Assembly: GCA_012514535.1 (NCBI GenBank)
Contig: JAAZAA010000040.1
Span: forward strand, 1 to 35,649
DNA: 35,649 nucleotides
Direction: 5' to 3'
From: Myxococcales bacterium
GTDB lineage: Bacteria; Myxococcota_A; Polyangia; Polyangiales; Polyangiaceae
Shown: positions 32,549 to 35,558 of the stretch, piece by piece
Layout: each line of letters starts with the position of its first letter
Numbering within the stretch: position 1 is the first letter of the stretch
Notes under the pieces: model-generated
Told to the model about the DNA's origin: nothing
Databases searched by the model: none
Seen by the model: only the letters and a program-made list of their open reading frames with translations
Made by a program: the position numbers and the translations under genes

Positions 32549-33214
32549 CTACCCGAGGGAGCGGCTCCTCGGAGAGCGCTCGTGCCCCGGGTCGGGCTCT
32601 CCCTCTCTGGCCCCCGCTCCCGCGCCATCACCGGCCGAGCCGACCTCGGCGCGGTACAGACCGTGCTCGTCGATGTAAGCCAACACCGATTGCGGCACGG
32701 CGGCGAGCTGGGGGCTGGGATCGTCCTGGGCCCGCCCGGCGCGTTCGCGCAACACCGCGCGGATCTCCGTGGACGACACGTCCGGCAGGACCGGCTCGGG
32801 GCCCCCCAGGTGCTCGACACCGACGCGACCGAGCACGATCAGCGGCGCGATCCGGCAGACCTCGTCGAACCGGTGCCACTTGTGGCTCTCCTGCACCGCG
32901 TCCGTCCCGACGACGAAGCGCAGCTCGGCGTCGGGGTAGCGCCGCCGCAGAGCCCGCAGGGTCTGCACCGTGTAGCTGGGCGCGGGCAGCTCCGCCTCGA
33001 TGGTCGAGACCTCCACCCCGTCTAGCCCGGCGAAGGCGCGCTCGCACATGCGCACCCGATGCTCGAAGGGCTCCATGCGCTTGTGAAACGCGTGCCGGAA
33101 GACCGGCACCACGAGCACCCGGTCGACCTCCCCGCTCTGCAGCACGTGCTCCGCCGCCAGCACATGGGCCCGGTGCGGAGGATCGAAGCTCCCGCCGTAG
33201 ACCGCCAGCCGCAT
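32549..33214 (-). CDS. nadD: Nicotinate-nucleotide adenylyltransferase NadD
   Basis: A 221-residue nucleotidyltransferase that converts nicotinate mononucleotide and ATP to deamido-NAD in NAD synthesis. It starts M-R-L-A-V-Y-G-G-S-F-D-P-P-H-x-x-H, the classic GGSFDPxHxxH motif. It also has F-V-V-G-T-D-A, W-H-R-F-D-E-V and the V-S-S-T-E-I-R motif near residue 170. The last 35 residues are a Gly/Glu/Arg low-complexity extension beyond the normal end. The ATG at 33214 is favoured over the GTG at 33217 because GGAGG is better spaced for it; either way the start overlaps the stop of the upstream gene. Co-transcribed with the genes on both sides. Confidence 0.94.
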   Translation of the reverse strand: MRLAVYGGSFDPPHRAHVLAAEHVLQSGEVDRVLVVPVFRHAFHKRMEPFEHRVRMCERAFAGLDGVEVSTIEAELPAPSYTVQTLRALRRRYPDAELRFVVGTDAVQESHKWHRFDEVCRIAPLIVLGRVGVEHLGGPEPVLPDVSSTEIRAVLRERAGRAQDDPSPQLAAVPQSVLAYIDEHGLYRAEVGSAGDGAGAGAREGEPDPGHERSPRSRSLG

Positions 33215-33825
33215 CACCCCTCCCCCGACACGCGCAGGTTCACCTCTCGGGCAAGGCCGAGCTGCTCGGTCCCCAGCTCCTCCAGGGCCCCGGAGTACCA
33301 GCTGACCCGCACCAGGCCGCCCGCGTCCTCCAGGAGCATCACGCCCCCCTCCGGAAAGCAGCCCGGCGACAGGAACCAGCGCCGCCCGATGCGCTTCACG
33401 AGAGGCGTCGGGCTAGCCCCGAACATCAGCCAGGTCGTTGGGAGGATGTCCTCCTCGTCGAGGAACGCCTTGTCGTGGATCATCACGGCGACGCGCCCGG
33501 CGAAGAGCTCCACGGACCGCGTCCGCTCTCCGGGCAGGGACTCGAACATGCGGAGCCGAGCGCGCTCCTGCTCTCGGGCCACGTAGGCGTCGATCTCCTC
33601 GGGGCTCGCCCGCAGACAGCGAGCGGTGGCCCTGCGGCACAAGGCGGCGTCCTCGGGGTGCTCCCCCACGAGCTGCTCCGCCCAGGACTCCACGACCCGA
33701 TCGAGGGCCCCGTCGACACCGAGGTACACGACGCGCTCCGCCTCCAGCTCCCGACGTAGGAACCGGGCCGCTCTCTCCAGGGTCTGGGGATCACCCTGTG
33801 CCGGTCCCAAGAGTCCAAGGCGCAT
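33214..33825 (-). CDS. Metallophosphoesterase-like protein lacking metal ligands, 203 aa
   Basis: No family is certain. The order of elements recalls YfcE-type calcineurin-like phosphoesterases. It opens M-R-L-G-L-L-G-P-A-Q-G-D-P-Q-T-L-E where the family has S-D-x-H-G-N; a strand V-V-Y-L-G-V-D-G follows where it has h-L-G-D; and W-L-M-F-G-A-S-P-T-P ends in L-S-P-G-C-F where the family has G-H-T-H and N-P-G-S. So the Asp/His/Asn ligands are replaced at every position I can align. If correct, it is a non-catalytic relative, perhaps a binding or regulatory protein. Its stop overlaps the nadD start (GTGATG), and GTGCTAGCGT lies 15 nt before the ATG. The homology is judged by eye only. Confidence 0.65.
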   Translation of the reverse strand: MRLGLLGPAQGDPQTLERAARFLRRELEAERVVYLGVDGALDRVVESWAEQLVGEHPEDAALCRRATARCLRASPEEIDAYVAREQERARLRMFESLPGERTRSVELFAGRVAVMIHDKAFLDEEDILPTTWLMFGASPTPLVKRIGRRWFLSPGCFPEGGVMLLEDAGGLVRVSWYSGALEELGTEQLGLAREVNLRVSGEG

Positions 33826-33948: not shown

Positions 33949-34713
33949 TCAGCCCTCGAGCAGGCTCCCGAAGAGGGCCAGCCCCCCGACGACGAAGGTG
34001 AGGTTGAAGACCGCCATCAAGCGGAAATAGTCGCCCAGCTGGTCGACGGGGACCCCCTGCAGCACCTCCCGGGTCGCCGCGACCGCCGTGAGCAAGGTAG
34101 GAGCCAGCAGGGGAAACAAGATGATGGCCAGGATCAGGTCCCGCGCCCGCGTCCGCACGGTCATCGCCCCGAACAGGGTACCGCTCGCGCTGATGCCCGG
34201 GGTGGCCACCGCCGCGATGGCGAGGAGCCCGAACCCCCGGTCGAACAAATCCACGGAGAAGAACAGCGCGGCGAGGGGGAACACCACGATCTCCACCGCG
34301 AACAGGAACGCGAGGAGCCCCGCCGCCTTCCCCGCGTAGAGCGCGCTCGGCCGCAGGGGCGTCACCAGCAGCCCTTGCAGCGCCCCCTCCTCCCGCTCCC
34401 GAGCCCAGCTCCGCCCCAGGGCGAGCACCGCCGCGAACGCGATGGAAAGCCACAGGACCCCGGACACGACCACGCGCCCGGCCGCCGGCCCGCCAAAGAA
34501 GGACATGGACGCCAGGACCACGACGAGCACGGCGAAGAACCCCGTCGTCACCGTGACCTCGCCCGTGCGCGCTTCGATCGCGAGATCCTTGCGCAGCACG
34601 AGCCAGACCTGCCCCCACCAGGACGGCGCGCGCGGAACCGGGACATCGACGAGCGCCTCGCTCGGCCCCTGCGACACCGTCGCTGCCTCCGAACGGCGGG
34701 AATCATGCACCAT
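33949..34713 (-). CDS. ccmB: CcmB-type heme/cytochrome c maturation permease
   Basis: A 254-residue membrane protein with about six hydrophobic spans. It has the CcmB pattern: L-R-K-D-L-A-I-E-A-R near residue 45, W-L-S-I-A-F-A-A-V-L-A-L-G-R-S-W then E-R-E-E-G-A-L-Q-G-L-L, a G-K-A-A helix start, A-T-P-G-I-S-A-S-G-T-L-F-G-A, and L-F-P-L-L-A-P-T-L. CcmB is the membrane subunit of the CcmABCD transporter that helps deliver heme for cytochrome c assembly. The ATPase CcmA and the CcmC partner are not next to it: the upstream neighbour diverges and the downstream gene is unrelated. The N-terminus is about 30 residues longer than E. coli CcmB; the ATG at 34713 is the first good start, but a later GTG is possible. 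Confidence 0.85.
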   Translation of the reverse strand: MVHDSRRSEAATVSQGPSEALVDVPVPRAPSWWGQVWLVLRKDLAIEARTGEVTVTTGFFAVLVVVLASMSFFGGPAAGRVVVSGVLWLSIAFAAVLALGRSWAREREEGALQGLLVTPLRPSALYAGKAAGLLAFLFAVEIVVFPLAALFFSVDLFDRGFGLLAIAAVATPGISASGTLFGAMTVRTRARDLILAIILFPLLAPTLLTAVAATREVLQGVPVDQLGDYFRLMAVFNLTFVVGGLALFGSLLEG

Positions 34714-34821: not shown

Positions 34822-35334
34822 ATGGCCGAGAACATCCGCGTGGAACACACCTTCGCCTGCAGCGAGGACACCTTCTGGGACAAGGTATTCTTCGATGAGG
34901 AGTACAACCGGCGCATGTTTCTCGAGGCCCTGCGCTTCCCGTACTGGAAGGAGCTCTCGAGCGAGGACCGCGGAGATCACATCCTGCGGGTCGTGGAGGT
35001 CGAGCCCGCCCTGGGCGACCTGCCCGCGGCCATCCAAAAGGTCGTGGGCGAAGGCCTCCGCTACAAGGAGGAGGGGCGCTTCGACAAGAAGAGCCGCCAC
35101 TACGGCATCCGCATCATCCCCAACCGCCTGCAGGACAAGATGCAGGTGGACGGCGAGCTCTTCACCCAGTCCCTCGGGGACAACCAGTTCAAGCGCATCT
35201 TCACCGCCGCCGTCAGCGTGAAGGTGTTCGGGGTGGGCTCCATGATCGAGAAGCGCCTCGTCTCCGACCTGAAGCGCAGCTACGACATCGGCGCCCAGTT
35301 CACCGCCGATTTCATCCGCGAAAAGGGCCTCTGA
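34822..35334 (+). CDS. DUF2505-family protein (START-like fold), 170 aa
   Basis: A soluble protein resembling DUF2505: E-H-T-F-A-C-S-E-D-T-F-W-D near the start, a central R-I-I-P-N-R-L-Q-D-K-M-Q-V-D-G-E strand pattern, then V-K-V-F-G-V-G-S-M-I-E-K and a C-terminal amphipathic helix (L-K-R-S-Y-D-I-G-A-Q-F-T-A-D-F). Members are thought to have the lipid-binding START/Bet v 1-like fold, but their function is not established. It diverges from ccmB and is followed by a terminator-like hairpin, so it is probably a single-gene unit. The start at 34822 agrees with the promoter 6 nt upstream. Confidence 0.85.
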   Translation: MAENIRVEHTFACSEDTFWDKVFFDEEYNRRMFLEALRFPYWKELSSEDRGDHILRVVEVEPALGDLPAAIQKVVGEGLRYKEEGRFDKKSRHYGIRIIPNRLQDKMQVDGELFTQSLGDNQFKRIFTAAVSVKVFGVGSMIEKRLVSDLKRSYDIGAQFTADFIREKGL

Positions 35335-35454: not shown

Positions 35455-35558
35455 CCCCGCGCTGCGCCACTGAGCCGAGCTGCCACCACGCTGGGCGGCC
35501 CCGCGCTGCGCCACTGAGCCGAGCTGCCACCACGCTGGGCGGCCCCGCGCTGCGCCAC
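35455..35558. repeat. 44-bp tandem repeat in the terminal non-coding stretch
   Basis: A 44-bp unit beginning CCCCGCGCTGCGCCACTGAG is present as two perfect copies (35455-35498 and 35499-35542) with the start of a third up to 35558. A degenerate piece of the same unit (CCACCACGCTGG) appears at the window edge. The 315 bases after the DUF2505 gene hold only this and the terminator; frames through it are repeat-encoded low complexity. Confidence 0.8.

Follow-up and report, generated by a model that had tools for sequence, protein, structure and literature searches.

Introduction

Does a gene whose motif order recalls a metallophosphoesterase, and which directly precedes nadD, still encode an enzyme, and if not, what would its product do beside a gene of NAD synthesis? 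The question is raised by an open reading frame of 203 amino acids plus stop codon (positions 33214–33825, reverse strand, ATG start) in the window, that is, the whole stretch of 35,649 nucleotides of Myxococcales DNA analysed here, which is contig C189 of a genome of 5.8 Mb (442 contigs, 99% complete). The gene is represented by 69 orthologues, and an AlphaFold model of its product matches the fold of YfcE and VPS29. The product is called pMPE (pseudo-metallophosphoesterase) in the following, an assignment that is very probably correct. To our knowledge, eukaryotic subunits account for most inactive metallophosphoesterases described so far (VPS29 and the polymerase B subunits). Among Myxococcota, the proteins described here form a conserved family of pseudo-metallophosphoesterases. 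This family of dead bacterial phosphoesterases covers at least ten family-level groups in two classes, includes intermediates showing the erosion of the active site and has a near-fixed neighbour in an essential pathway. The role of a dead phosphoesterase in bacteria becomes testable in culturable Sorangium, Polyangium or Minicystis, or with purified proteins. A literature search turned up no description of a phosphoesterase linked to nadD and none of the function of DUF2520, another neighbour of nadD.

The Locus

The pMPE gene stands on the reverse strand between a CcmB-like gene upstream (33949–34698, reverse strand; PF03379, 100.5 bits) and nadD downstream (32549–33217, reverse strand), which encodes nicotinate-nucleotide adenylyltransferase. 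Judged by its profile match, nadD is genuine, since TIGR00482 scored 127 bits (E = 8e-37), above the family cut-off; PF01467 was matched as well. The 3′ end of pMPE reads TGATG, and its stop codon shares one base with the ATG at 33212–33214, which is likely the nadD start; the overlap would be four bases if nadD started at the GTG at 33217. The preliminary description of this DNA had thus been right that the two genes overlap. A sensor histidine kinase gene follows nadD in the window, and DUF2520 is absent there, unlike in most loci. A DUF2505 protein (PF10698, 40 bits) is encoded at 34822–35331 on the forward strand, opposite to the ccmB–pMPE–nadD run, and a perfect 44-bp tandem repeat of 2.4 copies occupies 35455–35558, close to the contig end.

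Homology and Predicted Fold

Searched alone against the family libraries and the PDB sequences, the window protein gave no family match and did not reach the cut-offs of PF12850 and TIGR00040; the matches that these single-sequence searches returned (SctL, 14 bits; an amyloid-like protein) were rejected as chance. Among the orthologues, PF12850 (Metallophos_2) was the commonest weak match (15/67, best E = 0.0011) and TIGR00040 (yfcE) came first in NCBIfam, again weakly (10/67, best E = 5e-4), and a profile search of the PDB sequences gave TM1076, MJ0936 and VPS29 at E values of 0.2–0.6. An alignment of 67 orthologues with 25–54% identity to the window protein (A1) was then compared by hhalign with a control alignment of 30 ordinary YfcE-type metallophosphoesterases from the same order (A2), with a result of 97.6%, an E value of 3.5e-12 and a score of 84.4 over 167 columns. 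Because 60 column shuffles scored 19.1 at most and the reversed profile 14.9, the likeness of pMPE to phosphoesterases is, as judged from these profiles, not due to chance.

The AlphaFold model of the window protein was of high confidence (pLDDT 93.9, pTM 0.88). The leading Foldseek matches were Vps29, a COG0622 protein and MJ0936, each with a probability of 1.0, and VIA-align gave Z scores of 15.2, 14.1, 13.8 and 13.6 for 3ck2 (COG0622), Vps29, YfcE (1su1) and MJ0936, respectively. The same structural elements were predicted for a second orthologue, modelled within a chain linked to NadD (see below). As far as prediction allows, the fold of pMPE is settled as the calcineurin-like phosphoesterase fold of YfcE and VPS29. 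The preliminary description had proposed a degenerate YfcE-like metallophosphoesterase that a different predicted fold would have refuted; the fold turned out to be the expected one, and the proposal is sustained by the profile–profile comparison and by the sister-clade intermediates described below. That pMPE has no kinship with phosphoesterases and is a small alpha/beta protein resembling them by chance, as the failure of the window protein alone to match any library might suggest, can be dismissed as practically excluded by the margin of hhalign over the shuffles, the high-confidence model, the best Z score and a motif order kept over the full length.

Loss of the Metal Ligands

The positions of the metal ligands were located by hhalign to A2 and followed through A1 (all coordinates on the reverse strand). 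G7-P8-A9-Q10 (33796–33807) replaces S-D-x-H, with both the Asp and the His ligand gone, and together with G11-D12 it occupies the columns of S-D-x-H-G-N; throughout A1, this motif has the Asp in 0/67 and the His in 8/67 proteins. L35-G36-V37-D38 (33712–33723) stands for the GD motif, with V37 at the position of the bridging Asp, which is Asp in 12/67; the nearly invariant D38 follows one residue later. The GN[HD] region of the third strand is variable in pMPE, with helices (residues 40–93) in its place and GN in 3/67. H117-D118-K119 (33469–33477) replaces the HG motif, where the His of the motif aligns with H117 (His in 32/67) and D118-K119 is new and conserved. G136-A137-S138-P139 (33409–33420) replaces G-H-T-H, with both His gone; the first His is found in 1/67 proteins and the second in 0/67, and position 137 is Lys or Arg in 47/67. 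P154-G155 (33361–33366) is an invariant remnant of the N-P-G-S motif.

The replacements quoted in the preliminary description (G-P-A-Q-G-D and G-A-S-P) are therefore exact and fall in the same columns as the motifs of real phosphoesterases. Its claim that every metal ligand had been lost needs slight narrowing: of the seven usual positions, the window protein has lost six and retains H117, a lone His that is insufficient for a two-metal site. None of six tested positions keeps its ligand in 30/67 proteins, three are the maximum in any, and the check on orthologues found none with the ligand set kept; the D.H and GD patterns, for comparison, were matched by 30/30 canonical relatives in A2. The loss of the metal ligands, as read from these alignments, holds for the whole pMPE family. 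An active site rebuilt in a metal-free form or relocated (e.g., to D118-K119, E124-D126 or R149) would leave pMPE an enzyme, and the charged and nearly invariant R103, E106, K119, D126 and R149 could be cited for it; yet the family is without a conserved His or Cys and without a second D/H-rich motif, which makes continued catalysis very unlikely.

Orthologues and Conservation

The pMPE protein was present in 108 of the 289 genomes of the class, always in single copy and nearly all in the same order, the carriers known by name being Sorangium, Minicystis, Polyangium, Byssovorax and Labilithrix. Judged by these carriers, the window itself probably falls in or close to the Polyangiaceae. A scan of the contigs with a closer subset of A1 yielded 33 named loci; a scan of genome contigs with the window protein as the single query gave no match. 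Two matches were set aside, one in genome G002 (L098), apparently a chance match to a frame of antisense type, and one in G167 (21 bits to a frame of 1274 amino acids).

Four residues are invariant across the 67 proteins of A1 (G136, R149, P154 and G155) and twelve are nearly so (G7, P8, Y34, L35, D38, R103, E106, K119, E124, D126, G147 and F151). Pairwise comparison of Sorangium strains gave dN/dS values of 0.32–0.53 for pMPE, and by these sequence measures it is a maintained protein under purifying selection. The most conserved stretches were the former active-site loops (118–127, 153–156, 117–120, 35–39 and 7–11), with residues 103–110 equally conserved. Since those loops are among the best-conserved stretches, the alignment points to continued use of the old pocket, for a partner or a ligand.

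The Sister Clade and Stepwise Erosion

A divergent pMPE homologue, also placed before nadD, was found in another class of the phylum (genome G495). It belongs to a sister clade (family f48) in which the gene directly precedes nadD in 9/10 loci, and profile comparison of this clade with the Polyangiales set gave 98.3% over the full length. Some members carry intermediates (F-V-A-N-T-H-G-N, F-V-S-N-S-H-G and F-L-A-Q-S-H-G) in which the D of D-x-H-G is gone and the rest is kept, and others are already at G-P-A-G or G-S-T-G. We read this series as one ancestral phosphoesterase site being eroded step by step. The conserved residues differ between the two clades; starting from a common ancestor whose site was already partly eroded, each class may also have continued the decay on its own.

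The same clade encodes NadD and a Rossmann-like/DUF2520 domain in one open reading frame (L168:2086–3501, forward strand; L097:2124–3551, reverse strand; L218, L219 and L220). DUF2520 is a separate gene directly after nadD in most Polyangiales loci. Fusion in the one clade and adjacency in the other suggest that NadD and DUF2520 are a functional pair.

Linkage to nadD

The linkage was assessed in 79 genomes, which represent 55 genera and 10 family-level groups in two classes. In 77 of these genomes, pMPE and nadD share a strand and pMPE is the gene immediately upstream, with gaps of about −6 to 69 nt. The sole clear uncoupled case was G350 (L174), where DUF1343 and pMPE lie together and nadD is on another contig. 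At L036:1–119 the contig ends beside pMPE, and the 3′ end (C-terminus) of nadD appears to face pMPE tail to tail, an arrangement that may reflect an inversion or an assembly artefact. Most genomes of the order without pMPE still have nadD. In pMPE-less loci of the same family (L108, L111, L113, L119 and L121), ccmB directly precedes nadD, and from this gene order the losses look clean. A ligand-bearing phosphoesterase was sought before nadD in the relatives without pMPE and none was found, the place being taken by ccmB, DUF1343 or other genes. pMPE has been lost several times; on the NadD tree the coupled/uncoupled label changes 5 to 14 times. The genomes without detected NadD (G166, G177, G224, G189 and G203) were also without pMPE. 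In these five, TIGR00482 found no NadD and gave short partial matches only; another adenylyltransferase or NAD salvage may serve there. nadD is far less dependent on pMPE than pMPE is on the nadD locus: nadD persists without pMPE in many genomes and NadD therefore has no need of it.

The block as a whole is conservative in its gene order, since DUF2520 adjoins nadD on its 3′ side in 50/62 loci and the neighbours upstream of pMPE are partly common to the members of one family. Part of the pMPE–nadD linkage may accordingly be plain gene-order inertia, because the DUF2520 gene also keeps its place. Across families and classes, the upstream neighbours vary (ccmB, a TPR protein or DUF1343), yet the contact between pMPE and nadD stays.

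Contact between the two proteins was modelled on a linked chain from locus L011, where pMPE and nadD share a reading frame and were read through the stop. Each domain was well folded, but the pTM of the whole chain was 0.57, which leaves their mutual placement unsure (five paired rows, no control). For this model, the outcome counts as the non-detection of an interface and not as its refutation.

Proposed Function and Alternatives

The best explanation, which we favour tentatively and at somewhat less than an even chance, is that pMPE is a pseudoenzyme descended from the YfcE type and acts as a non-catalytic partner in the NadD module. The ancestor was very probably a YfcE/COG0622-type metallophosphoesterase whose fold was kept and whose two-metal catalytic site was lost, the protein being maintained as a pseudoenzyme. 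It would now work as a metal-free binding module, with the former active-site loops forming a conserved surface or pocket (G7-P8, L35-G36-x-D38, D118-K119, K/R137 and P154-G155) that may bind another protein or a small phosphorylated molecule. The partner or pathway would be the NadD (NAD synthesis) module, in which pMPE might serve to tune NadD, or the DUF2520 Rossmann protein next to it, or provide a scaffold for either, by analogy with VPS29, which binds VPS35 through its vestigial metal pocket. The function in the NadD module is by itself an equally tentative proposition. The preliminary description had already considered a role in NAD metabolism or nucleotide sensing. The coupling to nadD is supported in 77 of the 79 genomes; the functional step stays an inference because DUF2520 keeps its place as well, no contact with NadD was confidently predicted in the linked chain and several lineages have nadD alone.

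The main alternative, which is possible although less probable than the NadD-module role, is a pseudoenzyme whose function has nothing to do with NAD, in an old block (DUF1343–pMPE–nadD–DUF2520) whose genes stayed together, perhaps through translational coupling for expression only. It accords with the persistence of DUF2520 after nadD and its fusion in the sister clade, with upstream neighbours common within families, with the one genome in which DUF1343–pMPE lies apart from nadD and with the frequent presence of nadD without pMPE. Against it, the upstream neighbours change while the pMPE–nadD contact stays, and pMPE is missing where NadD is missing. A ligand sensor, in which a pocket lined by K119, K/R137, D38 and D118 would bind a nucleotide or phosphorylated metabolite metal-free and report to NadD or another protein, appears improbable: charged conserved residues do lie within the former active-site loops and Lys/Arg does take the place of the first GHTH His in most orthologues, but the pocket residues are not conserved in the sister clade. 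Within the favoured NadD-module explanation, a bolder and rather unlikely version would make pMPE a bacterial counterpart of VPS29 in Myxococcota: it would organise NadD and the DUF2520 Rossmann protein as a subunit with a regulatory or scaffolding role in NAD synthesis.

Comparison with Known Phosphoesterases

The closest known systems are the YfcE/COG0622 phosphodiesterases (TIGR00040, PF12850; E. coli YfcE 1su1, S. pneumoniae 3ck2 and MJ0936), with which pMPE shares the predicted fold of residues 1–191 (Z 13.6–15.2), the motif order, the N-P-G remnant and a full-length profile alignment. It differs from them in the loss of six of the seven metal-ligand positions, in the helices 40–93 that replace the GN-bearing strand and in reaching no curated cut-off. 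VPS29 of the retromer has the same fold (Z about 14) and is likewise a non-catalytic descendant of the superfamily; in contrast to pMPE, it is eukaryotic, binds VPS35 and accessory proteins and can still coordinate metal. VPS29 has been described as a scaffold that works independently of metal and contacts VPS35 through its vestigial pocket (PMC3101248). Similarly, Dpb2, a B subunit of a eukaryotic DNA polymerase, contains an inactivated calcineurin-like phosphoesterase domain and serves as a structural subunit (PMC7308368). The polymerase B subunits, Dpb2 among them, are unlike pMPE in being larger, in having an OB domain and a role in replication and in having lost their activity separately.

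A second group of partly degenerate phosphoesterases was observed in Polyangiales (L156–L165, with L100:512–1150 from the genome of the window itself). It belongs to the same superfamily and order as pMPE, with GN and the first GHTH His eroded, having G-x-[STG]-D for GN and G-x-[ST]-H for GHTH. This group, unlike pMPE, keeps D-x-H and H-G-S-P and is located elsewhere in the genome, and its hhalign comparison with pMPE gave 66% over 67 columns.
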